From: Arthrobacter sp. SO3
GTDB lineage: Bacteria > Actinomycetota > Actinomycetes > Actinomycetales > Micrococcaceae
Assembly: GCF_020532825.1 (NCBI RefSeq)
Contig: NZ_MQTS01000148.1
Location: 1 to 64,000, forward strand
Length of the DNA stretch: 64,000 nt
Reading direction: 5' to 3'
A model generated the notes under the pieces. It was not told where the DNA came from. It did no database searches and saw only the letters and a list, made by a program, of their open reading frames with translations. Within the stretch, counting starts at the first letter, position 1. Each line of letters opens with the position of its first letter. Both the position numbers and the translations under genes were made by a program. Shown here piece after piece: positions 2,270 to 15,052 of this stretch.

Positions 2270-2857
2270 GTGGCAAGCATTAGAGAAGCTCAAAAGCAGA
2301 TGACCCGCAGGCTGTTGCTTGAGAAAGGGCTGGAGCTCTTTGAAGAGAAGGGGTTCGCGGCCACCACGGTGGATGACATTGCCGCGGCCGTAGGCACCAC
2401 CCGGGCCACTTTTTACGCGCATTTTCCGTCCAAAGCCCAGCTCATGCGGTCGCTGGTCGAGCGGTCCAACGAGATGCTGACCGAGGCGGATGTCCCGCCG
2501 CTGCATTCGGTGGTGGAATCCGGGGACCGCGAGCTGATCCGGGTCTGGCTCGCACGGAAATTTGACCAGTGGGCCGAAATCCGCCCCTACGTGGTGGCGG
2601 CGCACCAGGCCGCGGCCAGTGAACCGGATATCCAGGCGGCCCTGGACCAATGGTTCGACACCGCGATCGACGACATGCAAGCGGGCCTTGACCGGGCCGG
2701 CCGGTTCGAGCCGTCCAGCAGGCGTGTGCGGTGCGCGCTGGCCTTCGGGGAACTGGAGTTCTTTTCCCGGCGCTGGATGCGGCTCGGCTGGACCGTCGAC
2801 CGCGACGTGTCACTCGATCTGATGGTCGAGAACTGGTGCTTCCTGCTGGCTGAGTGA
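2270..2857 (+). CDS. TetR family regulator, left boundary of the catabolic island
   Basis: A 195-residue TetR repressor starting at GTG. The N-terminal helix-turn-helix covers about residues 8-55 ('FAATTVDDIAAAVGTTRATF' then 'YAHFPSK'); the remainder is the ligand-binding, dimerising helical domain. It is a clear paralogue of the TetR at 14438: both begin with an 'S-[IL]-REAQK' segment, share most of the DNA-binding helices, and end with 'ENW-x-x-LL'. It converges with the leftward catabolic operon across a shared hairpin. The effector is presumably a substrate or intermediate of the pathway, which is inference. Confidence 0.9.
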   Translation: MASIREAQKQMTRRLLLEKGLELFEEKGFAATTVDDIAAAVGTTRATFYAHFPSKAQLMRSLVERSNEMLTEADVPPLHSVVESGDRELIRVWLARKFDQWAEIRPYVVAAHQAAASEPDIQAALDQWFDTAIDDMQAGLDRAGRFEPSSRRVRCALAFGELEFFSRRWMRLGWTVDRDVSLDLMVENWCFLLAE

Positions 2858-2885: not shown

Positions 2886-4625
2886 TCAGCGCGCCTGGTT
2901 TCCCGCGGCCTTGCGCGTGGTGAACGGCAGGACGAGCCGGGAGGGGTGGGCGGCGTCGCGGTAGATCTTGTGGGTGACGGGCCGGCCCACGGGGAGGTGG
3001 AAGGCATCCGGCGGCAGCAGCGCGTTGTGCTCGTCGGCCAGCGGTTCGGCGTTCGACAGCTCTGCGGTCAGCCTGTGTCCCGGTTTGAACGTGTTCGCGA
3101 ACGGGTACAGACGCAGCACGTACTCCTCGATCTTCCCCGGTTCCACCGGCACGGCACGGGTGTGCGGGTGGTGCGGGCTGCCCTCGGTGCTCCGCTCGTC
3201 GAGCTCGCGGTGCGAGGCCTTGAGGTAGCCGCTGGTGATGAGCTGGCGTTTGCCGGTGGGGGCATAGTCCCAGAGGCGCAGGATGAAGTTCGTGTCCGGC
3301 TGGTCGATCTCGGCGAAGATGTGCGCGGCGCCGGTGCCCATCATCTCCGTGTCCTCCTCGAAGGCAGGAGTGGACCAGCTGATGATCTCCACCTTGTCGG
3401 TCACCGTCAGCGGCGCCTGGTAGAACCCGTCCGGGGCGGCGTACTCCGGGCCCATCGTCTCGGGGCCGGCCGAGAGTTTGTGGCGCGGGCGCAGATACAC
3501 GTTTTTGTATTCGATGTCTTTCGGCGGCCATGCCCCGCCGGTGACGAGCTCCCGGGAGCCCTCCACGAACACACTGACGGCCGGCTCGTCCATCACGCCG
3601 TTGTCGATCCCCTTGATCCAGTAGTCATACCAGCGGAACATCTTGTCGTGTTCCTCGATGAAGGGCCGGGACTGCATCGGCGGGTAGGGGCCGATGTCCA
3701 GCTTCTTGGGGCCCTTCAGCGAGTCGAACAGCTCGATGGTGCCGTCCATGGTCCAGCCGCGGCCCTGGTCGATCTGCAGCCACACCGGGATGTCGATGTT
3801 CGGGGCCAGCGTGATGGGGTTGCGCTCCTCGTACCAGTCCCCGTCGAGTTCGTTCATCACAATGTCGAACCAGGCCTCGTGGTTCTTCGGGTAGTTCAGG
3901 ACGTGGACCAGGTTCGGCCAGGCGGCCACGTCCGGATCCTGCAGGCGCTTCTCGACAAGCTTCTTCAGCTCCCCGGGTGGGTACTTTTCGATCATTCGGG
4001 ACTTGACGCCGTCGGTGAACGCCCAGCCGGAGTCGCCGCCGCGGCCCTCGCGGGCGGCCCGCGGCATGAACCACATGACGCCGCCGTGGTAGGTGGTCTC
4101 GTAGAAGTCGTAGTGGCCGCCGGAGACGAAGATCGCCTTCAGGTGCGGCGGGCGCTCGGCCGCGGCCAGCACCTGCATCGAGCCGAAATAGGAGATGCCC
4201 ACCATGCCAACGTTGCCGTCGCACCACGGCTGCTCGGCGACCCACTCGATGAAGTCGTAGGCGTCCTGGCCCAGCGAAACACCGCCGGCGTTGTAGTTGC
4301 CGATGTGCTCGCCGCCGGAGTGGCCGGAGCCGCGCAGGTCGCCGATGACGTGGACGTACTCCTCCTTGACGATGCGGGCGATGTCGCCGGCCTCGATGCA
4401 GCCGTCCCACATCGGGCTGGGGCGCCGCTGCGGCGGCGTGGTGAGGGCAAGGGCCTGCAGCTCCTTGCCGTATGGGCTGAGGGCCACCAGCGCGGGCCGC
4501 GGCTCGTCCCCGGGGCCGTGGTAGGCGTCCGCGGCGAGCTCGACGCCGTCCCGCATCGGAACCCGGAGGTCCTTGCGGACAGCGATCTTCTCGCCGCCGG
4601 CAGCCAACATCTTAAGGTCATCCAT
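2886..4625 (-). CDS. CocE/NonD family hydrolase (X-Pro dipeptidyl-peptidase S15 type)
   Basis: A 579-residue serine hydrolase of the CocE/S15 group, which cleaves esters, acyl compounds or X-Pro peptides. Visible are the N-terminal 'MRDGVELAADAY' segment, 'GDLRGSGHSGGE' (about 95-106), the nucleophile elbow G-I-S-Y-F-G with Ser145, and the C-terminal beta-sandwich of the family. The usual G-P-W-x-H block carrying the catalytic His reads G-P-Y-P-P-M here, so the His position is not evident. The start at 4625 is chosen because AGGAG lies 10 nt upstream; it overlaps the preceding stop by 8 nt. It is the last gene of the six-gene leftward operon. Confidence 0.88.
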   Translation of the reverse strand: MDDLKMLAAGGEKIAVRKDLRVPMRDGVELAADAYHGPGDEPRPALVALSPYGKELQALALTTPPQRRPSPMWDGCIEAGDIARIVKEEYVHVIGDLRGSGHSGGEHIGNYNAGGVSLGQDAYDFIEWVAEQPWCDGNVGMVGISYFGSMQVLAAAERPPHLKAIFVSGGHYDFYETTYHGGVMWFMPRAAREGRGGDSGWAFTDGVKSRMIEKYPPGELKKLVEKRLQDPDVAAWPNLVHVLNYPKNHEAWFDIVMNELDGDWYEERNPITLAPNIDIPVWLQIDQGRGWTMDGTIELFDSLKGPKKLDIGPYPPMQSRPFIEEHDKMFRWYDYWIKGIDNGVMDEPAVSVFVEGSRELVTGGAWPPKDIEYKNVYLRPRHKLSAGPETMGPEYAAPDGFYQAPLTVTDKVEIISWSTPAFEEDTEMMGTGAAHIFAEIDQPDTNFILRLWDYAPTGKRQLITSGYLKASHRELDERSTEGSPHHPHTRAVPVEPGKIEEYVLRLYPFANTFKPGHRLTAELSNAEPLADEHNALLPPDAFHLPVGRPVTHKIYRDAAHPSRLVLPFTTRKAAGNQAR

Positions 4626-5586
4626 GGGTGCGTCGCTCCTCATGCTTGGTCTTTTGGTCAAAGGTGGTGCGGTAGCCGTGCAGTGTTGTGAAGAACGGGG
4701 AGGGCTCCAGTGTGGGGTCCCCGGCGTAACCAAGGTCCTCGGCTACGCGGGCGAAGGGCGAGTACGGTGAGTCCGTGTCCCGCAGTCCGGCAGCCACGCA
4801 GCCGCAGGCCGAGTCACTGACGCGGGCTTCGAGCTCCAGGCTCGCCTGCAGCGCTTCCTGGGCCTGCCAGGCGTCGAGTTCGACGCCGTACGGCGTGCCG
4901 TCAGCGCGGCGGTACGGGTGCCCGAGGTAGAGATGCTGCGGACGGATCTCGTCGCTGAGGTAGTGCAGGCTTGAGCGGTAGCCGGCCGGGTCCACGAACC
5001 CGGGGAATCCGTTGGCGGCACCATGGACCTGGACGGCGTCGCCGACGAACACGTCGTTTTGTCCGTCTATGACATAGGCGACCGACCCGCGGGTGTGGCC
5101 CGGAATCGAGTGCACCGAGACAGTGACGTCACCGCCGAGGGAGATAGTCTCCCCGCCGCGCACCAACATCGTCGGCTCCATCTCCCCCGAGATGACGGCG
5201 TTTGTGGCCGCCGTCAGCTTCGCCTCGCCGTCGGGGTCGTGCAGGTACTGCGCCCGGCCGGAAAGGTATTCGTCCACGTGGGCCCGGCGCGAGCGCAACA
5301 TCGGGGCGTCAGCCTCGTGGATAACCACCTGCGCGCGCCGTCCGGTGAGCTCCCACAGGGCGTGCGCGCCGCCGATGTGGTCGATATGTCCGTGGGTCAG
5401 CAAGATCCAGCGGACGTCCTCGATCCGGCGGCCGATCGCCTCCAGCGCCGGCACCATGCCTTCGGCGGGCGAGGATGCGATCCCCGTGTCGACGATGGCG
5501 GGCTCCGGGGCGTCGATGAAGAAGCTGTAGAGACCGAACCGGCCCCACGGGGAGACCAGGGGATGAACAGCGACGGACTCGCTCAT
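4618..5586 (-). CDS. MBL-fold metallo-hydrolase
   Basis: A 322-residue metallo-beta-lactamase-fold hydrolase. The binuclear-zinc motif H-G-H-I-D-H is at residues 65-70, followed by later ligands in 'IPGHTRGSVA' and 'FVGDAVQ'. Members cleave thioesters, lactones or phosphoesters; the substrate here is unknown. The protein is longer than a minimal MBL domain, with an extra C-terminal segment of about 100 residues. It is translationally coupled on both sides: its ATG overlaps the upstream hydrolase stop as ATGA, and its end overlaps the CocE start. This tight coupling argues for a shared pathway. Confidence 0.88.
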   Translation of the reverse strand: MSESVAVHPLVSPWGRFGLYSFFIDAPEPAIVDTGIASSPAEGMVPALEAIGRRIEDVRWILLTHGHIDHIGGAHALWELTGRRAQVVIHEADAPMLRSRRAHVDEYLSGRAQYLHDPDGEAKLTAATNAVISGEMEPTMLVRGGETISLGGDVTVSVHSIPGHTRGSVAYVIDGQNDVFVGDAVQVHGAANGFPGFVDPAGYRSSLHYLSDEIRPQHLYLGHPYRRADGTPYGVELDAWQAQEALQASLELEARVSDSACGCVAAGLRDTDSPYSPFARVAEDLGYAGDPTLEPSPFFTTLHGYRTTFDQKTKHEERRTHG

Positions 5587-6509
5587 TGCCCGGCCCCGGC
5601 GTTCAGGAATCCACCTGTCTCCTCGAACGCCCGGTAGAACTCCGGGATCCAGGAGAAGTTCTGCATGAAACCGTGGTTGGCACCCTCGTAGCGGCTGACT
5701 GTTGCGTCGACGCCGGCCTCCGTCAGGCGCCGGCCGTAGAGTTCGCCCTCGTCCCGCAGGGGGTCGTGCTCGGCCGTGATGACCAGGGCGGGCGGCAGCC
5801 CGGTGAGGTCCTCGCGTTTGACGGGGGAGACGAGGGGATCCGCCGGATCCGCCCCGCTCTTGAGGTAGAAGGAGTTGAACGGCAGCAGGCCCGCCGTCTC
5901 CAGCCCGTACCCCTCGGCGTTCTCCCGCAGAGAGGCGTAGCGGTCGACGTCGAAGTCCAGGTCCAGGGACGGGTAGAACAAGACCTGGTGAGTGATCCGG
6001 TTGAACCCGTCATTGTGGGCCTTCGCGGCGACGGCGGCGACGAAGTTGCCGCCCGAACTGTCGCCCGCGATGGCGAGGTTCTTCCCGTCCCAGCCCAGGC
6101 TCCCGCCCTGTTCGGCGGCCCAGCGGACCACCCCGTAGCAGTCCTCGAGGCCGGCCGGGAAGGCGGCCTCCGGGGCCAGGCGGTAGCCGACGGAGATGAC
6201 CTTGTGGCCGGTTTCCTTGGCCAGGGACCGCGCCACATGGTCGTGGGTGTCCAGGCTGCCCAGGAAAAACGCGCCGCCGTGGAAGTACACCAGCAGGCCG
6301 TAGGCGTCGGCCTCGACCGGCGTGTAGATCCGCACAGGCACAGCGCCCGACGGCGTCGCGGCGGTGAGGTCCTCGACCGCGTGCAGCGGCAGCCTGTCCT
6401 CCAAAGGCGGGACCTGCTCGCCGGCGCGCATGGCTTCGGGGTTCAAGGGAGAACCGTCGGGCACCGGCAGGGTCCTGAGGATATTGGCGATTTCGGGATG
6501 GATGGTCAT
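5583..6509 (-). CDS. Alpha/beta hydrolase, HSL (hormone-sensitive lipase) family
   Basis: A 308-residue carboxylic ester hydrolase of family IV. The oxyanion-hole motif HGGA is at 77-80 and the nucleophile elbow G-D-S-S-G-G-N at 149-155 (Ser151). Acid and base are Asp249 in 'EHDPLRDE' and His279 in 'GANHGFMQNF', so the triad is complete. The start at 6509 is taken because the sequence 'MTIHPEIANILRTLPVPDG' looks like a genuine N-terminus and lies 5 nt after the monooxygenase stop. The gene overlaps the next by 4 nt. It probably hydrolyses a small ester or lactone formed by the oxygenases; that role is inferred. Confidence 0.9.
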   Translation of the reverse strand: MTIHPEIANILRTLPVPDGSPLNPEAMRAGEQVPPLEDRLPLHAVEDLTAATPSGAVPVRIYTPVEADAYGLLVYFHGGAFFLGSLDTHDHVARSLAKETGHKVISVGYRLAPEAAFPAGLEDCYGVVRWAAEQGGSLGWDGKNLAIAGDSSGGNFVAAVAAKAHNDGFNRITHQVLFYPSLDLDFDVDRYASLRENAEGYGLETAGLLPFNSFYLKSGADPADPLVSPVKREDLTGLPPALVITAEHDPLRDEGELYGRRLTEAGVDATVSRYEGANHGFMQNFSWIPEFYRAFEETGGFLNAGAGQ

Positions 6510-6514
6510 GGCGT

Positions 6515-7651
6515 TCAGGCCTTCGCTGCGGTCGTGGGCTTCTGGGAGGTGGGCTTCTGCCCGGGGAAGACGTCGTTGACCTCGTCCTCGGTCCACCCCT
6601 GGCGGGAAATGCGCTGCAGCTCGTCCGTTACCGGCTTGCGGGTGGCCTGGAACAGGGCCAGCGCCTCCTTCACGGAACCGGCCTGCGCGAGGGCGTCGGC
6701 GAGGGCGCCGGCATCCTCGATGGCCGAGTTCGCGCCCTGGCCCTGGTGGTGCAGCATCGAGTGGGCCGCGTCCCCCATCAGCACGACGGAGTTCGTGTGC
6801 CAGGTGTCCACCGGGTCGATGTCGTAGACGGCGCGGATGTTGACCGCCTCCATGTCGAGGCCGCGGGCGATATTCACGATCCGCTCGTCGAAGCCCTCCA
6901 CTGTCGCCAGGAGGTCCTCTTTCGTGATCCGGGGCGCCCAGGTGCTGTCCGGGTTCAGCGCGGTGATGTCGAAGGACATCTGGTTGCGGTGGCGCAGCGG
7001 CAGCAGGTAGACCTTGGTGCCCCGGCCCATGTACATCCTCAGGTTGTCGTCGACCACCATTCCGTGGGCGTCGTCGGCGGAGATCACCACGCGGTAAGCG
7101 TGCTCGCCGGAGAACACGGGGCCCTTGTCGCTGAAGAGCTGCTCACGCACCACTGACTTGATGCCGTCGGCACCGACCACCAGGTCGGCCTCGACGGTCT
7201 CCCCGTTGGCGAAGGTCAGGACGGAGCTGCCGCCATTGTCCTTGATGGTCTCCAGCCTGTGGCCAAGCTGCACCATGCCCTCGGGAAGCACGCCTAGAAG
7301 GGCTTCGATGAAGTCGCGGCGGTGAATGAGGTACGTCTGCTTCTCTTCGCCGGACTCCGGCCAGGTGTCCTTCATGATCGGCTCACCGGTGGCCGTGAGG
7401 ATTTCGAAGTAGTCGCTCGCCGAGCTCACCTTGGCGATCGCGTCGAAGGTTCCCCACTGGCGGAACCGGGCCATGGTGGCAGGACGCAGACCGATGCCGG
7501 CGCCGACCTCTCCCATCTGGGGAGCCTGCTCGTACACCGTGACGTCTGCACCGAGCAGGCTCAGGGCCTTCGCCGCGGCAGCGCCGCCGTAGCCTGCGCC
7601 GATGATGGCGATCTTGAGGTTCTTAATTTCCGAAGCCTTCATTTTGTTCAT
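6515..7651 (-). CDS. FAD-dependent aromatic-ring-type monooxygenase (group A flavoprotein)
   Basis: A 378-residue flavoprotein hydroxylase of the salicylate / 3-hydroxybenzoate / 6-hydroxynicotinate monooxygenase type. The Rossmann FAD motif is 'IIGAGYGGAAAAKAL' (16-30), the DG motif 'VVGADGIKSVV' (158-168), and the second FAD motif 'GDAAHSMLHHQGQGANSAIE' begins at 293. Such enzymes use NAD(P)H and O2 to hydroxylate, sometimes with decarboxylation. It is third in the leftward operon, 59 nt after a phosphotriesterase-like gene. ATG codons at 7651 and 7642 are both possible starts. No ring-cleavage dioxygenase is present in the window, so the route from its product is not visible. Confidence 0.9.
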   Translation of the reverse strand: MNKMKASEIKNLKIAIIGAGYGGAAAAKALSLLGADVTVYEQAPQMGEVGAGIGLRPATMARFRQWGTFDAIAKVSSASDYFEILTATGEPIMKDTWPESGEEKQTYLIHRRDFIEALLGVLPEGMVQLGHRLETIKDNGGSSVLTFANGETVEADLVVGADGIKSVVREQLFSDKGPVFSGEHAYRVVISADDAHGMVVDDNLRMYMGRGTKVYLLPLRHRNQMSFDITALNPDSTWAPRITKEDLLATVEGFDERIVNIARGLDMEAVNIRAVYDIDPVDTWHTNSVVLMGDAAHSMLHHQGQGANSAIEDAGALADALAQAGSVKEALALFQATRKPVTDELQRISRQGWTEDEVNDVFPGQKPTSQKPTTAAKA

Positions 7652-7710: not shown

Positions 7711-8676
7711 TCAGGCGTGGAGCGACAGGAAGTCGGCCGGATTGTCCTCGAGCAGGAGTTTGATGGTGGCGTCGTCGATGCCGGCCGCGCGCATGTCGGG
7801 GATCATGTCCTCGAAGATGTAGTTGATGGTGTGGCCCTTCACTCCCGGCCAGCCCAGCGGGCTGCAGTTTGCGTCGGCCGAGACGAGGAGCTTGTCCGCG
7901 TAACCCTTGTTGACGAGGTTGACGAAATGGTCCATGCGTTCGGCGCGCTTGCGGCCCCAGAACGGCGGGTCCGGCAGCTCGAGATCGTAGCCAAAGGTGT
8001 CGAAGCCGATGCGCCCGCCCTGCTCGTAGATCCAGTCGTGCGGTGTGATCGGGGCGTTGAGGCCGTCGTCGGCGTGGCCGAAGAGCACGCGGTCCAGCGG
8101 GAGGCCCTCTTCATTGAAGATGTCCACTGCCGGTTCGGGGTCGATGGCCAGGTGGGTCAGGATCGGCGCGCCGGTCACGACGGCGGCGCGGGCCGCCGCC
8201 CGGTAGATGCGCTTGTCCAGGTCCGTCATCCGTCCGCCGCGGCTCACACCGACCTTGATGACGCCGGCCTTGGCGCCGGTGTTGCCGATGCCGACGGTGA
8301 TCTCGTGGATGAAGACCTTCGTGAGGTAGTCCACGGTGGCGCGGGAGAAGTGCGGCAGGGCGGTGTCGCCGCCGACGAAGCCGGTGCAGGCCACGATGTG
8401 CACGCCCGTCTTCCGGGACAGGGACTTGTAGTAGTCCACGTCACGGCCGTTGCAGATGCCCGTGGCGTCCACAAAGGTACCGCCGCCGTACTCACGGAAT
8501 TTCCGCAGTTTCGGCACTGTTTCCTCGTAGGCCTGCTCGGGGGTCTTCCACCACTTGGTGTCCAGTTCGGACCCGGGCATGCCGTAGCCGATGTGTTCGT
8601 GGACCGCCACGATTTCCAGTTCTTCGGCCGGGATGGTTCCCAGCACGGTGTTGACCTTGGTCACTCGTTCACTCAC
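7711..8676 (-). CDS. Phosphotriesterase-family metal-dependent hydrolase (complete metal site)
   Basis: A 321-residue amidohydrolase-superfamily enzyme of the phosphotriesterase/lactonase family. All six expected binuclear-metal ligands can be placed: H26 and H28 in 'VHEH', bridging lysine K141 in 'VIKVGVS', H175 in 'ILTHL', H201 in 'FGHAD' and D268 in 'VSADAN'. Family members hydrolyse lactones, phosphotriesters or related carbonyl compounds. The start is a GTG; a GTG four codons on (8664) has a better-spaced GAGGTGA. It sits between a degenerate paralogue and the FAD monooxygenase in the operon. Lactonase activity would fit an oxygenase pathway but is not proven. Confidence 0.9.
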   Translation of the reverse strand: MSERVTKVNTVLGTIPAEELEIVAVHEHIGYGMPGSELDTKWWKTPEQAYEETVPKLRKFREYGGGTFVDATGICNGRDVDYYKSLSRKTGVHIVACTGFVGGDTALPHFSRATVDYLTKVFIHEITVGIGNTGAKAGVIKVGVSRGGRMTDLDKRIYRAAARAAVVTGAPILTHLAIDPEPAVDIFNEEGLPLDRVLFGHADDGLNAPITPHDWIYEQGGRIGFDTFGYDLELPDPPFWGRKRAERMDHFVNLVNKGYADKLLVSADANCSPLGWPGVKGHTINYIFEDMIPDMRAAGIDDATIKLLLEDNPADFLSLHA

Positions 8677-8717: not shown

Positions 8718-9728
8718 TTAGCGCACGGTGAGCAGGTTGCGCGGGTTGTCCACGAGGATGCGCCGGGCGTCTTCTTCGTTCAGGCCTTGGGCCTTGAGGA
8801 AAGGCACGAAAGTGGTCAGGAGGTGACTGTAGGGCAGATCGTAGTCCGGCTGTCCCTTGGCTACGCCGATCGAGTTGCCCGAAAGGATGATCTTGTCGGC
8901 GTGGCCGGCTTTGACCAGCTCAAGCACCAGTTCGGCGCGGTCGTGGTCGGTGAGGTAGTCCGCGTGGTCGTTCAGGCCCACGTGGTCGATGCCGACGAAT
9001 GCCCCACGGCGGGCCACGTCAACGGCGGCGCCGGCGGCGTCTTTACGGTCCAGGCCGCCGACCAGGACTCGGTCGGCCCCGATCTGCTCGTCCAGAACGA
9101 TGTCCAGATCATGCAGGGCATCGGCGCCGAAACGGATAGAGACCGGTATGCCGGTGGTTTTGGCGGCGCGGGCGGAGCCGCGGAACAGGCTTTCCTCAGT
9201 CGGTGTCATGCCGTTGCGGTCAGCGGTGGTGGTCACGAGCCCGGCCGCGCCGCGACGCTCGACGCGCGGCACCACCATGCCCTCGGTGACCTCCTTGGAG
9301 AAGAGGTCGGCGAACTTCTCGGCGGGCCACGGCGTCGGCGGGTTGGTTTGCGGGGTCAGGAAGTAGCCGCCGAGCATCTCTTCCGGGCCCATGCCCGTCG
9401 AGGCGACGATGTTCACACCGGTTGAGCGCGAGAGAGCCTCGTAGAGCTTCAGGTCGCGGCCGTGGAACATACCGGTGCTGTCGACGATCGTCTTTCCGCC
9501 GTGGTCGCGGAAGTCCGTCAGCTTCGCGGCCAGGATCTCGAAGATCTCTGCCCGGTCCATGGAGATGTCGGGGGCGTACTGGGCACCGGGCAGCACTGAC
9601 AGCAGGGCCTCATGGACCGCGACAACTCCCAGTTCAGAAGCGGGGACCGGCCCCAGGACCGTGTTGACGGTTCGCCCGGCCCGGGCAGGGAACGCGTCAC
9701 CGGCTTTGGCGGGTGTGGTGTGACTCAC
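8718..9728 (-). CDS. Phosphotriesterase-like protein with degenerate metal site (probable pseudoenzyme)
   Basis: A 336-residue paralogue of the next gene; the two share 'VNTVLG', 'VAVHE', 'GRD', 'DRVL' and 'DNP' blocks and align end to end. Relative to that gene, the second His of HxH is Ala41, the bridging Lys is Thr166, the two later His are Arg199 and Gly225, and the catalytic Asp is Asn286; only the first His (39) remains. A conventional binuclear centre cannot form. The frame is intact and leads the operon, so a non-catalytic or altered role is more likely than decay. The GTG start at 9728 has AGGAG 7 nt upstream; an upstream ATG at 9824 is not needed. Confidence 0.85.
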   Translation of the reverse strand: MSHTTPAKAGDAFPARAGRTVNTVLGPVPASELGVVAVHEALLSVLPGAQYAPDISMDRAEIFEILAAKLTDFRDHGGKTIVDSTGMFHGRDLKLYEALSRSTGVNIVASTGMGPEEMLGGYFLTPQTNPPTPWPAEKFADLFSKEVTEGMVVPRVERRGAAGLVTTTADRNGMTPTEESLFRGSARAAKTTGIPVSIRFGADALHDLDIVLDEQIGADRVLVGGLDRKDAAGAAVDVARRGAFVGIDHVGLNDHADYLTDHDRAELVLELVKAGHADKIILSGNSIGVAKGQPDYDLPYSHLLTTFVPFLKAQGLNEEDARRILVDNPRNLLTVR

Positions 9729-9830: not shown

Positions 9831-9847
9831 CTTTACATAGTGTCAAG
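9831..9847 (-). promoter_or_regulatory. Operator/promoter motif, leftward copy
   Basis: On the minus strand this reads CTTGACACTATGTAAAG, an imperfect palindrome (CTTGACA against TGTAAAG) containing a perfect -35 hexamer TTGACA. It points toward the six-gene leftward operon about 100 bp away. The outer sequence also gives TTGCTT/AAGCAA. Thirteen of 15 core positions match the rightward copy. A TetR operator is the natural guess. Confidence 0.65.
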
Positions 9848-9924: not shown

Positions 9925-9941
9925 CTTGACATCATGTAAAC
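9925..9941 (+). promoter_or_regulatory. Operator/promoter motif, rightward copy
   Basis: CTTGACATCATGTAAAC on the plus strand carries TTGACA at 9926-9931. A possible -10 element CAGAAT lies 18 bp downstream at 9950-9955, about 110 bp before the MFS start codon. A regulator bound here would cover the -35 box. Both motif copies have the same orientation relative to their own operon. Confidence 0.65.
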
Positions 9942-10064: not shown

Positions 10065-11801
10065 ATGAGTCAGACCACCACTGCGCAGACGGGCACAGCG
10101 CCCAGCGGCGGCTCGGTACGAGCCACCTTCGTAGCCGCCTACAGCGCGGTTGCACTGGCCCAAATCACCAACGCACTGCCGGGTGCCCTCAACGGCACCT
10201 TTGCCGTGGAATTCCACACCTCGGGCGCGGGCCTGACCTGGATCGCGGGCATGTTCATGATGGGCATCGTGGTGTTTGAGCTCAGCTGGGGGCTCCTGGG
10301 AGACATGTTCGGCCGCAAGAGGCTGCTATATGCGGGCGCTGCAGTCAGCGTCGCCGGTTCCATCCTGGCGGCGCTGGCATCCACCACCGAAATGATGATT
10401 GCGGCGCAAGCGGTGGGCGGCATCGGAGCGGGCATCCTCTTCCCCATTTCGCTGTCCATGATCGCGGCGATCACTCCGGACCACCGCGCCCGGGCGAAGG
10501 TTATCGCCACCTGGGCCGGGTTCCTATCGCTGGGTGCGGTGATTTCCCCCATGCTTGCGGGCCTGACGGCACAGGCCTTCACGGTGGCGGGTCCTGTGGC
10601 GGGCGCCCCCAACGTCTTCAGCGGCTGGCGCGTGGCGTACTACATTGCCGCCGCGATCGCCGTCGGCGTCATTATCGTCGCGGTCCGGGCGAAAGACTCC
10701 GCAGCGGCCGAGGGCCGCAAACTGGACCTGCCCGGCCAGTTCACGCTCGCGTTCGGCCTGATCGCTGTCCTCTTCGCCACGGTGACGGCGGTCGACGCCG
10801 GCTTCGGCAGCGCCGAGGTCATCGCCAGCTACGTTGCAGGCGTCGTCCTCCTCGTCGCCTTCGTCGTCATCGAAACACGCACCCCGCAGCCGCTGATCCA
10901 CCTGTCGCTGTTCAGGAACAGCGCCTACTCGATCACCGGCATTGTTGCGGTCACCGGCATGTTCGCCTTCCTCGCGATCGCCTTCAGCACGAGTGTCGCC
11001 GTCGGCGGGCTCGCCCTCGCTGAAGCGTGGAAGGTCGGCGTGCTGTTCGTCTTCATCCAGGGTCCGGCCTTCGCCTTCATTCCCGTGGTGGGCTGGCTCA
11101 TCCACCATGTCGCCCCGCGCTGGGTGCTCACCGCCGGGTTTGCCTTCATGGCCGCCTCAGGATTCTGGCTCTCGACCTTCGCCCTGGGCGCGCCGGAAGC
11201 CTTCGGCGGAACTCCCTGGACGGCTTTCATTCCGCCGCTCCTGCTGCTGGGTATCGGGTTCGCGCTCACCGTCGGCTCCGTCACCGCCGTGGCGATCAAC
11301 ACCGTGCCGCCACAGCAAATCGGCATGGCTTCGGCCACGACCAACCTGCTGCGCGACCTCGGTTTCGCCCTTGGCCCCGTCATCGGCTCAGCCATCGCGT
11401 TCGGAGTCGGCGCCACGGCCTTCGCCGGACCCCTCGCCGGGATACTCGGCGGGGCAGGGCTGCCCGCCGACGCCGTCGCCGGGCTGGCGAACGTGCCGCC
11501 GCTGGGCTACCTCTCAGGCTGGGACGGCGTCATCGCGCAATTCACCGGGCAGGCAACGGCTGGCGGCGCACCCGCCCAGGCCGTGGACGGCATGGTCAAG
11601 GCCCTCACCTCTGCGCAGCTGCAGATCCAGGGCGCGGCCGGGACCTCCCTCGGCCAGGGGTTCCAGACTGTCTACCTCACCGCGGGCATCGCGGCGGCCC
11701 TCTCCGCTGTGCTGACCCTCTTCATCTCCGTACCGTCCTCGGCGCCCACACCCGATGCCATCGCGGAGACCACCGAAGCGAACGCCGAGGCGGCCGTCTA
11801 G
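10065..11801 (+). CDS. MFS transporter, DHA2-like (about 14 membrane segments)
   Basis: A 578-residue major facilitator with proton-driven export or uptake architecture. The loop 2-3 motif A appears as 'GLLGDMFGRKRLL', and the hydrophobic profile fits about 14 segments, with a long extracytoplasmic insertion near residues 465-540. The ATG at 10065 is chosen because AAAGGAG lies 8 nt upstream; an upstream in-frame ATG at 9954 would run through the promoter motif. It is first in the rightward operon, 48 nt before the P450, so it probably carries the pathway substrate or a toxic intermediate. Direction of transport is unknown. Confidence 0.87.
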   Translation: MSQTTTAQTGTAPSGGSVRATFVAAYSAVALAQITNALPGALNGTFAVEFHTSGAGLTWIAGMFMMGIVVFELSWGLLGDMFGRKRLLYAGAAVSVAGSILAALASTTEMMIAAQAVGGIGAGILFPISLSMIAAITPDHRARAKVIATWAGFLSLGAVISPMLAGLTAQAFTVAGPVAGAPNVFSGWRVAYYIAAAIAVGVIIVAVRAKDSAAAEGRKLDLPGQFTLAFGLIAVLFATVTAVDAGFGSAEVIASYVAGVVLLVAFVVIETRTPQPLIHLSLFRNSAYSITGIVAVTGMFAFLAIAFSTSVAVGGLALAEAWKVGVLFVFIQGPAFAFIPVVGWLIHHVAPRWVLTAGFAFMAASGFWLSTFALGAPEAFGGTPWTAFIPPLLLLGIGFALTVGSVTAVAINTVPPQQIGMASATTNLLRDLGFALGPVIGSAIAFGVGATAFAGPLAGILGGAGLPADAVAGLANVPPLGYLSGWDGVIAQFTGQATAGGAPAQAVDGMVKALTSAQLQIQGAAGTSLGQGFQTVYLTAGIAAALSAVLTLFISVPSSAPTPDAIAETTEANAEAAV

Positions 11802-11849: not shown

Positions 11850-13022
11850 GTGACTGCACCCATCGAATCAGACATCGACATCTGGGATGACGATATCCTC
11901 GTCGATCCCTACCCCACCTACGCCGCGCTGCGCGAGCAGGCCGCAGTGGTCCACCTGCCCAAGAACGGCCTGTACGTCCTGACGCACTACGACGTCATCC
12001 GCGACGCACTCGGCGATCCGGAAACCTTCTCGTCCACCAGCATCGGCTTCAACCCCATGGTGAATGAGGCGCTGCAGGGCACCTCGCTTGCCTCGGACCC
12101 GCCCGTTCACACGCAGCTCCGCGCCACGCTGTCCCAGAACCTCACCCCCCGCGCGCTCCGCAGCCTGAAAGTCGTCATCGACGAGAAGGCGGACAAGCTC
12201 GTCGCCGAGCTTGCCGCCAGCGGCAGTTTCGAGGCCATCGATTCGCTGGCCCGTGCCTTCCCGATCGAAATCGTGGCCGACCTCATTGGATTCAGTGGCC
12301 ACGTCAAGGACAACATGCTGCGCTGGGGCCAGGCCGCAATGCAGGTCATCGGCCCGCTGAACCAGCGCACCCAGGAGAGCTTCCCGATCGCCGGCGAGCT
12401 CTACGGCTGGTGCTCCTCGGTCACCGCCGAGGACCTCATGCCAGGCTCAATCGGCCGCGGAATCTTCGACGCCGAGACCCGGGGCGATATCCCCAAAGGC
12501 TCCGCAGGGCACATCATCCACCAGTACCTGGGGGCAGGCGTCGACACGACGATCGCCTCAATCGGGAACATCGTGGCACTGTTCGGCCACTACCCGGAGC
12601 AGTTCGAGCTGGTCCGGAAGAACCCGGAGCTCGTCCCCGCAGCTTTCGCCGAGGTGCTGCGTTACTGGGCACCCGTCCACATCTGGGGCCGCAAGGCAAC
12701 GCGCGACGTTGAAATCGACGGAGTCACCATTCCTGCAGGCGCCCAGGTCGGCATCCTCTTTGGCGCCGGCAACCGGGACCCGCGGCACTACGAAAATCCC
12801 GACACCTTTGACGTGACACGCAACCCGATGGACCACCTCTCCTTCGGCTACGGACCGCACGGCTGCGCAGGACAGGGCCTGGCGAAACTTGAAGCGCACG
12901 CGATCATCGAGGCACTTGCCCGCAGGGTAAAAACGCTGACGATCTCCGACGAGGTCCGCGAACCCAGCAACATCACGCGGAGCCTCGAATTGCTCCAGGT
13001 CGAAAAGGTGGTGGCAGCATGA
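11850..13022 (+). CDS. Cytochrome P450 (class I, bacterial)
   Basis: A 390-residue soluble P450 starting at GTG after an AAGGAG. The I-helix oxygen-activation motif is 'LGAGVDTT' with A229-G-V-D-T-T234; the K-helix E-x-x-R is E268-R271; the heme loop is 'SFGYGPHGCAGQG' with the thiolate ligand Cys339. The C-terminal half resembles CYP199/CYP101-type enzymes that hydroxylate or demethylate small aromatic acids or terpenes. That resemblance is from memory of family sequences, not a search. It overlaps the ferredoxin gene by ATGA and is followed by a reductase, giving a complete electron-transfer chain. Confidence 0.95.
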   Translation: MTAPIESDIDIWDDDILVDPYPTYAALREQAAVVHLPKNGLYVLTHYDVIRDALGDPETFSSTSIGFNPMVNEALQGTSLASDPPVHTQLRATLSQNLTPRALRSLKVVIDEKADKLVAELAASGSFEAIDSLARAFPIEIVADLIGFSGHVKDNMLRWGQAAMQVIGPLNQRTQESFPIAGELYGWCSSVTAEDLMPGSIGRGIFDAETRGDIPKGSAGHIIHQYLGAGVDTTIASIGNIVALFGHYPEQFELVRKNPELVPAAFAEVLRYWAPVHIWGRKATRDVEIDGVTIPAGAQVGILFGAGNRDPRHYENPDTFDVTRNPMDHLSFGYGPHGCAGQGLAKLEAHAIIEALARRVKTLTISDEVREPSNITRSLELLQVEKVVAA

Positions 13023-13213
13023 AGATCGAACTGGACCGGCCGCGCTGCGAAGGACACGGCCTGTGCGAGGAAGCCGCACCTGAGCTGATGCATCTGGATG
13101 ACGACGGCGAACTGGTCATCGATGTGCCGGAGGTGGACGGGGCGGAGCTTGACGCTGCCAAGGCGGCGGTCAGGGTCTGCCCGGTGGCCGCCCTGCGATT
13201 GGCGGCGGCATGA
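13019..13213 (+). CDS. Small 3Fe-4S-type ferredoxin, P450 redox partner
   Basis: A 64-residue ferredoxin with cluster ligands C10, C16 and C54 (followed by Pro). The second position of the usual C-x2-C-x2-C is His13, giving C-x2-H-x2-C. Such P450-linked actinobacterial ferredoxins carry a 3Fe-4S or His-influenced cluster. It is coupled by ATGA overlaps to the P450 upstream and to the reductase downstream, which strongly supports a dedicated chain from NAD(P)H through reductase and ferredoxin to the P450. Confidence 0.93.
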   Translation: MKIELDRPRCEGHGLCEEAAPELMHLDDDGELVIDVPEVDGAELDAAKAAVRVCPVAALRLAAA

Positions 13214-14409
13214 CGATGCGCAGGATCGTGGTGGTCGGAAACGGCATCGCCGGGCTCACGGCCTGCGACTCACTGCGCTCGGCCGGCTTCGACGGCGAGC
13301 TCACGGTTGTGGGTGCCGAGCGCCATCATCCCTACAGCCGCCCGGCCCTGTCGAAGGCGCTGCTGCATGGCAACGACGCCCTCCAGGCGCACGAGCTCCC
13401 CGAGCCGACCCACGCTGCAACGGAGCTGCTCGGCATCAGCGCCACGGGCCTGGACGTCGACGCCCGGCTGGTCCGCCTCGACGGGGGCGGTGAACTGCCG
13501 TATGACGGCCTCGTCATCGCCTCCGGCTCCCGCGCGAAAAGTCTCGTCCCCGTGCAGGGAGCGGGAGTGCCTCGAGAGGACGGCTTCCACCGGGAGCTCA
13601 CCCTGCGTACCATCGAGGATGCGATCCTCCTCAAGGAACGCGTGGCATCGCGCCCCTCGGTCATCGTGATCGGCGGCGGACCGCTCGGCATGGAGGTCGC
13701 GTCCGGGTGCCTGCACGCGGGCTGCGAGGTCACCGTCGTCTCCGACGTCAAGCCACTGTCGCGTCAGCTTGGCGCCCATTTGGCCGACATCTTCACCTCC
13801 GCCGCCATCCGGCGCGGACTGCGGGTGGTTGGCAGCGGCAAGGCCCGTTTGATCGATCATGGGGCCGGGACGCGGGTTGTCCTCGCCGACGGTACTGAAC
13901 ATGCGGCGGATCTCGTGGTCACCGCCATCGGCGACGAGCCGAATGTCGGCTGGCTGGCCGGCTCTGACCTCCTCACGAACGGGTCGCTGCGTGTCGATTC
14001 GCGCGGCCGGGTCCGGGCGGACATCGTGGCAGCGGGCGACGTGGCGTTCTTCCCCACCCTCCGAGGCATGCAACGGGTTCCGCTGTGGACGAGCGCCATC
14101 GACCAGGCCAAGGTCGCGGCGGTCGGCCTGCTGCAGGGCGATGCCGCACCGGAGCTCAACTTCACGCCGTATTTCTGGACGGAGGGCTTCGGAGTGTCGC
14201 TCAAATCGGTCGGCTTTACACCGGTGGCGGGTACCCCGGACTTCTGCGAACCGGGCCGGGAGAACGGGTCGGTGCTCATGCGCTGGCAGAACGACGACGG
14301 CTCCGGGACCGCCGCCGCGGTCAACTACCGGATCCCGATCCCCAAACTGCGCCGGCTGGCGGACGCCGGTCCGGCCGCACTGCGTCCCGCGGCCGCCGCC
14401 CGGGTCTGA
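13210..14409 (+). CDS. Ferredoxin reductase, FAD/NAD(P)-dependent
   Basis: A 399-residue pyridine nucleotide-disulfide-oxidoreductase-fold protein. The FAD Rossmann motif is 'VVVGNGIAGLTA' (G10-x-G-x-x-G15), and the NAD(P) motif is 'VIGGGPLGMEVASG' (about 153-166). The C-terminal FAD motif is in 'RADIVAAGDVAFFP'. There is no redox-active C-x4-C near the N-terminus, as expected for oxygenase-type ferredoxin reductases. An ATG at 13216 is an alternative start. It transfers electrons from NAD(P)H to the adjacent ferredoxin. The TetR gene follows 28 nt downstream and may be co-transcribed. Confidence 0.93.
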   Translation: MTMRRIVVVGNGIAGLTACDSLRSAGFDGELTVVGAERHHPYSRPALSKALLHGNDALQAHELPEPTHAATELLGISATGLDVDARLVRLDGGGELPYDGLVIASGSRAKSLVPVQGAGVPREDGFHRELTLRTIEDAILLKERVASRPSVIVIGGGPLGMEVASGCLHAGCEVTVVSDVKPLSRQLGAHLADIFTSAAIRRGLRVVGSGKARLIDHGAGTRVVLADGTEHAADLVVTAIGDEPNVGWLAGSDLLTNGSLRVDSRGRVRADIVAAGDVAFFPTLRGMQRVPLWTSAIDQAKVAAVGLLQGDAAPELNFTPYFWTEGFGVSLKSVGFTPVAGTPDFCEPGRENGSVLMRWQNDDGSGTAAAVNYRIPIPKLRRLADAGPAALRPAAAARV

Positions 14410-14437: not shown

Positions 14438-15052
14438 ATGTCGTCGCTGCGAGAAGCCCAGAAGAAGCTCACCCGCGACGTGATCGTGGAGCGCGCGCTT
14501 GAGCTGTTCACTGAGAAAGGTTACGCCGCGACCACCATCGACGAGATCGCTGCAGCGGCCGGCACCACCAGGGTGACTTTCTACGCCTACTATCCGTCAC
14601 GCAGTGATCTGATGCGGGACTTCATGGCGCGCGTCAACGCCGTGCTGGACCGTGCGGACGGCCCGGAGAGCGGCTCCACGGCACTCGACCTCGTTGACGT
14701 GGTGCGCGCAGGAGAGCTGCCGGGCATTCTGGCCTGGCTGGAGTCGCGGGCGGCGCTATGGCCGGTCTTCCGCCCTTACCTCGACGTGCTCGACGAGGCC
14801 GCCGCCGTCGACCGCGAAGTACGCGCCATGGTCGAGCGATGGCATGAGGAGGTTATCTCCGACCTGGTCCGCGGAATGCGGCTGGCCGGGTGCTTCTCGG
14901 AAGAAACCCACCATATCCGCGGAACCCTCGCCTTCACCTCACTCGACTACGTGGCCACGCTCTGGACACGGCGCAAGTTTGAACCAAATCGCGAACACGC
15001 GCTCGAGATACTCGCCGAGAATTGGTACCACCTGCTCTGCGACGAAGGCTGA
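14438..15052 (+). CDS. TetR family regulator, right boundary of the catabolic island
   Basis: A 204-residue TetR protein with the helix-turn-helix at about residues 8-55 ('YAATTIDEIAAAAGTTRVTF' then 'YAYYPSR'). It is a paralogue of the TetR at 2270, similar along the DNA-binding domain and at the C-terminal 'ENWYHLLC' end, while the ligand domain has diverged more. It follows the ferredoxin reductase in the same direction, so it is probably part of the rightward transcript and autoregulated through the central operator region. Which of the two TetR proteins binds the central motifs cannot be settled from sequence. Confidence 0.9.
   Translation: MSSLREAQKKLTRDVIVERALELFTEKGYAATTIDEIAAAAGTTRVTFYAYYPSRSDLMRDFMARVNAVLDRADGPESGSTALDLVDVVRAGELPGILAWLESRAALWPVFRPYLDVLDEAAAVDREVRAMVERWHEEVISDLVRGMRLAGCFSEETHHIRGTLAFTSLDYVATLWTRRKFEPNREHALEILAENWYHLLCDEG

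Follow-up and report, generated by a model that had tools for sequence, protein, structure and literature searches.

A predicted phosphotriesterase-family pseudoenzyme regularly paired with its intact paralogue in an actinomycete operon

What does a phosphotriesterase-family protein do once most of its metal site is gone, and why is it kept beside an intact copy of the same family? The question is raised by two adjacent genes in the 64,000-nucleotide stretch of Arthrobacter sp. SO3 DNA that was analyzed here (the window). Both lie on the minus strand; the product of positions 8718 to 9728 is called A, and its paralogue, the product of 7711 to 8676, is called B, with ligand sites numbered on the window proteins. 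An earlier note on this DNA had described A as a pseudoenzyme with an intact frame and had offered as possible roles a partner subunit, substrate binding or sensing, or a new metal-free chemistry. Judged by its sequence, A is a conserved pseudoenzyme regularly paired with an intact paralogue, and its being kept intact directly before B in many soil bacteria suggests that the two proteins work as a pair.

The membership of A in the phosphotriesterase family is clear. Its reading frame runs uninterrupted from a GTG start at 9728 to a stop at 8718, encodes 336 residues and is preceded by a ribosome-binding-like stretch (AAGGAGAAG), so that the intact frame described earlier is confirmed. The protein matches the Pfam PTE profile (PF02126) at 133.2 bits against a cutoff of 22.4, and among solved structures it is closest to the phosphotriesterase homology protein 4if2 and to a group of aryldialkylphosphatases, which we take to be of the SsoPox kind. 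B, with 321 residues, matches the same profile at 167.2 bits, and at an E value of 0.01 or below A and B are the only two places of the family in their own genome. Neither protein can be given the identity of a named NCBIfam enzyme (PRK09875, organophos_OPH or phospho-furanose lactonase); the best scores, 88 bits for A and 106.7 bits for B, fall far under the cutoffs of 486 to 630, and these candidates were ruled out.

When A and B were placed in a joint alignment, five of the six metal ligands proved to be replaced in A (H28 of B by A41, K141 by T166, H175 by R199, H201 by G225 and D268 by N285), H39, which aligns with H26 of B, being the sole ligand kept in the window protein. In addition, the second Asp of the family HxDD motif has become R228. 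The count of five lost residues given in the earlier note is thereby borne out, as are the first four replacements that it listed; the fifth, which it placed at N286, is N285. B has the full ligand set HHKHHD, and the same six residues were found in all 20 of the other phosphotriesterases compared (20 of 25 distinct sequences fetched).

Whether this loss is peculiar to one strain can be answered from the orthologues. A genome scan confirmed 106 relatives, of which the best 80 were kept as named loci (70 to 89% identity); these come from Arthrobacter, Kocuria, Citricoccus, Georgenia, Streptomyces, Micromonospora, Nocardia, Rhodococcus, Actinomadura, Amycolatopsis, Geodermatophilus and others. 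Together with further genomes, a Caballeronia plasmid and the window itself they yielded 104 rows for A and 102 for B, two of each being repeats, and thus 102 distinct A and 100 distinct B rows. The complete binuclear set (HxH, K, H, H, D) occurs in none of the 102 distinct A rows. Counted by rows, the first His site holds His (101) or Ser (1), the second His site Ala (99) or Ser (3), the Lys site Ala (70), Thr (29) or Val (3), the third His site Arg (101) or Leu (1), the fourth His site Gly (74), Asp (25), Glu (1), Ala (1) or Asn (1), and the last Asp site Asn (76), Ser (13), Gly (10), Arg (2) or Asp (1). Asp227, on the other hand, is kept in every one of these rows. All 100 B rows have H, H, K, H and H, and at the last ligand site 98 have Asp and 2 a gap; the second Asp of HxDD is Asp in 100 of 100 B rows versus Arg in 102 of 102 A rows. 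Many of these rows represent close relatives, and clustering at 80% identity into 34 groups leaves the picture unchanged: all 34 have Arg at the second-Asp position, and 33 have it at the third His.

The A genes that carry these losses look maintained. No internal stops were reported in A among the genomes that hold it in the genus (40) and in a second family (16), and its median dN/dS of 0.28 (0.23 for B), calculated by the Nei-Gojobori method with synonymous sites partly saturated and with 3,502 of 3,570 pairs usable (a count given for A), places A under purifying selection. Losses that recur across 102 distinct A rows, with no stops reported, amount to more than chance or decay. The comparison with orthologues proposed in the earlier note therefore favors its view of A as a retained pseudoenzyme, since the orthologues lose their ligands at the same sites in undamaged frames.

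The genetic setting offers the next clue. As had been claimed, A is the first gene of its operon. After it, on the same strand, come B, a FAD-dependent aromatic-hydroxylase-type monooxygenase (6515 to 7651; best solved relatives 6-hydroxynicotinate 3-monooxygenase and tropone 2-monooxygenase), an alpha/beta hydrolase of the hormone-sensitive-lipase type, hereafter the esterase (5583 to 6596), an MBL-fold metallo-hydrolase (4618 to 5586) and a CocE/NonD family hydrolase (2886 to 4733; TIGR00976 over cutoff). The starts of the esterase and of the CocE/NonD hydrolase are uncertain, each listed open reading frame overlapping the gene before it. Upstream of A lies a divergent operon on the plus strand, comprising an MFS transporter (10065 to 11801, its start picked from a ribosome-binding-like stretch), a CYP199-like cytochrome P450 (11850 to 13022), a ferredoxin (13019 to 13213), a flavoprotein of the ferredoxin reductase type (Pyr_redox_2; 13210 to 14409) and a TetR-family regulator (14438 to 15052). 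Among the best 80 of the 106 loci, homologues scoring at least 150 bits were found near A for the FAD monooxygenase in 79, the esterase in 79, the MBL-fold protein in 76, the CocE/NonD hydrolase in 74, the P450 in 53 and the MFS transporter in 41; the corresponding figure of 54 for TetR was obtained with a second regulator as the query (2270 to 2857, plus strand), not the one at 14438 to 15052, and counts TetR homologues in general. This second TetR gene lies past the far end of the A operon, beside a SulP-type transporter (648 to 2187).

In the gap between the two operons are two operator-like sites of the pattern TTGACAnnATGTAAA, one facing A (9832 to 9846, minus strand) and one facing the divergent operon (9926 to 9940, plus strand), the latter overlapping a promoter-like hexamer. 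They are the only places in the 64 kb that lie within two mismatches of the pattern, and either TetR protein is a candidate owner. At the same tolerance 69 of 86 loci have a site ahead of A, versus 0.1 in shuffled sequence, a comparison in which the window copy was left out, none of the loci was excluded because its upstream stretch was short, the pattern came from the window and the shuffles kept base composition only.

Individual loci depart from this arrangement in several ways. In L050, L054, L066, L068, L069, L072, L075 and L098 the MBL-fold gene runs in the opposite direction to A and B, which stay together. The FAD monooxygenase scores only about 409 to 534 bits in L037, L050, L054, L058, L060, L061, L066, L067, L069, L092, L098 and L101, versus about 600 to 770 in most other loci, as if the gene may have been swapped in some operons; some of these cases are perhaps split genes. 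Apparent splits affect the P450, FAD monooxygenase, CocE, B and MBL genes of L055 (Arthrobacter sp. Hiyo8) and the P450, FAD monooxygenase, CocE, MFS and esterase genes of L071 (Arthrobacter sp. OVS8), perhaps through sequencing errors.

The P450 bears on what the operon might degrade. Its nearest solved relatives are CYP199 enzymes, as in the CYP199A systems (PbdAB of Rhodococcus jostii RHA1), and it is accompanied by ferredoxin and reductase genes of its own. In PbdA, Arg84, Ser87 and Ser237 anchor the carboxylate of the substrate (PMC11530827). In our reading of the alignment of the window P450 to 9g9q, the Arg is opposite a gap and both Ser positions hold other residues. The absence of these anchors makes a para-substituted benzoate an unlikely substrate, and a para-methoxybenzoate pathway through a CYP199A P450 was rejected as unlikely for the same reason. 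On this alignment the substrate of the P450 is probably not a benzoate, and our guess for the operon would be a neutral aromatic or terpenoid compound.

How strictly do A and B go together? In 198 genomes of the genus, searched both ways, A (78 to 100% identity) is present in 40 and B (E value of 1e-60 or below) in the same 40, of which G131 has a split B. Of 301 genomes in the family of genome G246, 16 have B, and A, which was sought in those 16 rather than in the other 285, adjoins it in 16 of 16. Close relatives of both were found in the same two of 396 genomes in a phylum sample, so the operon unit is patchy. Among the best 80 of the 106 loci a B homologue stands directly behind A in all 80; B is in pieces in L055 and L076, and in L110 it runs into the end of the contig. 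Order and adjacency are also preserved on the Caballeronia plasmid. In the tree, A and B form separate clades with supports of 100/100 and 100/99, and together they stand apart from 20 other phosphotriesterases (96/87), a grouping to be read with a long-branch warning.

The two proteins also diverge together. Six operon proteins were compared by a mirror-tree analysis of between-locus distances, with score thresholds that dropped 11 or 22 of the 80 loci. The A-B pair gave a raw r of 0.88 and a partial r of 0.78 over 69 loci, and 0.93 and 0.81 over the stricter 58, the partial correlations being given without a significance test because pairs of loci are not independent. The runner-up partial r was 0.55 for the FAD monooxygenase and the esterase (69 loci) or 0.38 for B and the esterase (58 loci). 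B and the FAD monooxygenase, which are neighbors too, reached only -0.23 and 0.09, so adjacency alone is no explanation of the co-divergence of A and B. This co-divergence fits a complex, and it fits two tightly coupled steps as well. With a mean distance of 0.32 versus 0.22 for B, A diverges the faster of the two, which is compatible with its being a subunit and with its being an independent enzyme alike.

One of these operons lies beyond the Actinomycetota. Plasmid p2 of Caballeronia insecticola (NC_021295.1, 11428 to 24095) carries the whole operon including the ferredoxin and reductase, in a run of TetR, P450, ferredoxin, ferredoxin reductase, A, B, FAD monooxygenase, alpha/beta hydrolase, MBL-fold hydrolase, CocE/NonD hydrolase and transporters. 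Its A (locus L145; 58% identity, 105.6 bits to Pfam) reads SSVRGS at the six sites, all six ligands being lost, and its B (69% identity) reads HHKHHD. Nevertheless, this A still has R199, R228, GGYFLTPQTNPPTPWPA and most of the conserved block of residues 112 to 163 discussed below. In the tree, Caballeronia B groups with Geodermatophilus at 100/100, while the place of Caballeronia A, on a long branch, is open; the operon of this betaproteobacterium was likely transferred from an actinomycete. The search of plasmids yielded Caballeronia as the one close relative, and that of phages just two distant Listeria records, which match B.

Conservation within A is greatest in residues 112 to 163 (9240 to 9395, minus strand; GxGPExxxGGYFLTPQTNPPTPWPA...GMVVPRxERR), where 34 of 52 positions are at least 99% invariant versus 67 of 284 elsewhere (Fisher P of 1e-8). 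The block follows the third strand and may lie at the phosphotriesterase dimer interface. Parts of it have low confidence in the models described below, as might be expected of a stretch that is fixed by a partner or a ligand. When positions were divided into classes of our own making from the secondary structure of the first model, the invariant ones numbered 39 of 95 for the loops of the active-site face, 10 of 44 for strands, 23 of 117 for helices and 16 of 44 for loops of the opposite face. Since the opposite-face loops have invariant positions too, the conservation of A is not confined to the active-site face.

Structure prediction made use of a natural read-through. In some loci B follows the stop of A in the same frame, and for one of them, the Arthrobacter relative L054 (its A 84% identical to that of the window over 325 columns), A, stop and B were folded as one chain. 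The first AlphaFold run (19 paired rows) gave a pLDDT of 78.2 and a pTM of 0.50, and the second (78 rows, 19 of them paired) a pLDDT of 85.2 and a pTM of 0.53. The A half of the second model has the phosphotriesterase TIM-barrel fold, superposing on a phosphotriesterase structure with a Z score of 40.6 (304 residues aligned, root mean square deviation of 2.2 Å). Neither run, on these shallow alignments of 19 and 78 rows, gave a confident A-B interface; the pTM values are what would be expected of two good domains without a trusted orientation, and the Foldseek and VIA-align rows shown each matched one half, none spanning both. With alignments this shallow, and neither coordinates nor pair errors to hand, the models speak neither for nor against a complex.

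Taken together, these findings lead us to favor, at a probability of roughly 55%, the view that A is a noncatalytic subunit of an A-B hydrolase within a P450/flavin-monooxygenase operon. Among the roles that the earlier note had offered, that of partner subunit draws the most support (from co-occurrence, adjacency and co-divergence), and the others draw less. An ancestral phosphotriesterase-like gene would have been duplicated, the binuclear metal site being kept by B and lost by A, and an ancestral homodimer would thereby have become a heteromer. B would use its metals to hydrolyze an ester, a lactone or a comparable bond arising from the P450/flavin monooxygenase/esterase pathway. The conserved block of A may contribute to the interface or to the pocket of B, and the dead site of A may be held by R199 and R228 in place of the metal charge. 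Two observations weigh against this. Coupled catalytic steps that move as a block would also yield co-divergence and adjacency, and the invariance of the face loops of A exceeds what a pure scaffold would seem to need.

The latter point leads to the strongest of the alternatives, in which A is an independent metal-free enzyme that performs its own step beside B (e.g., an isomerization, a tautomerization or a lyase reaction) with a site rebuilt around Arg199, Arg228, Glu40, Asp227 and Asp248. The two near-universal Arg substitutions and the unbroken conservation of Asp227 would be understandable on such grounds, as would the conserved face loops and the retention of all five residues in Caballeronia A. 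However, Glu40, Asp227 and Asp248 are identical in B and are thus positions of the family rather than new ones, and within the genus the two-way search never found A without B, which an independent enzyme need not show. We therefore hold this alternative to be a serious one but on the whole rather unlikely. A further, speculative possibility, which we regard as unlikely, combines elements of both: with R199 and R228 standing in for a metal His and the second Asp, the metal-free barrel would act only in an obligate heteromer with B, a composite catalyst in which the site of A binds or activates the substrate and B cleaves it.

It is more doubtful still that A is a ligand-binding protein, in which the dead site would bind a substrate or product (the two Arg receiving an anionic group) and sense or deliver it, for example acting on B as a chaperone or an allosteric subunit. 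Two nearly invariant Arg residues in a former metal pocket, together with conserved face loops, would suit such a role; regulation, however, could be explained by the TetR genes and the conserved operator-like site. Very improbable is a hydrolase with an unusual metal centre, the metal being bound by other residues: H39 persists in 101 of the 102 distinct rows and Asp occupies position 225 in 25 of them, but four ligand positions are replaced in all 102 and the last Asp in 101, and Caballeronia A has lost the remaining His as well. That A is a decaying duplicate, a notion favored by the lost ligands and nothing else, is ruled out for practical purposes by its stop-free frames, by its dN/dS and by same-site losses kept across many actinomycete families and Caballeronia.

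For the evolution of catalytic sites the phosphotriesterase family serves as a main model, and its members have been studied as homodimeric metal enzymes. A dead and an intact paralogue that are widely kept together provide a direct way to ask what the second subunit contributes without a metal site. The pair also marks a catabolic operon common to many actinomycetes and a Caballeronia plasmid, the substrate of which can now be sought. In open-license papers, the body of literature searched (most subscription journals and preprints fall outside it), no account of a dead and intact paralogue pair in this family was found.

Relative to the known members of PF02126 (the phosphotriesterases, the SsoPox-type lactonases and the mycobacterial protein 4if2), both A and B belong to the family by sequence and share its TIM-barrel fold (the fold as predicted), and B has the full metal site; A differs in lacking five of the six ligands (all six in Caballeronia) and in having Arg for a metal His and for the second Asp. 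Parallels to the pair as such come from outside the family. ADAT3-ADAT2, the trypanosome AdoMetDC prozyme and DNMT3L-DNMT3A are paralogue pairs of a pseudoenzyme and an enzyme, with complexes known biochemically, whereas the A-B complex is one that we infer. As in those pairs, a dead paralogue is kept with a live one, the catalytic residues being lost in A across its orthologues and retained in B.
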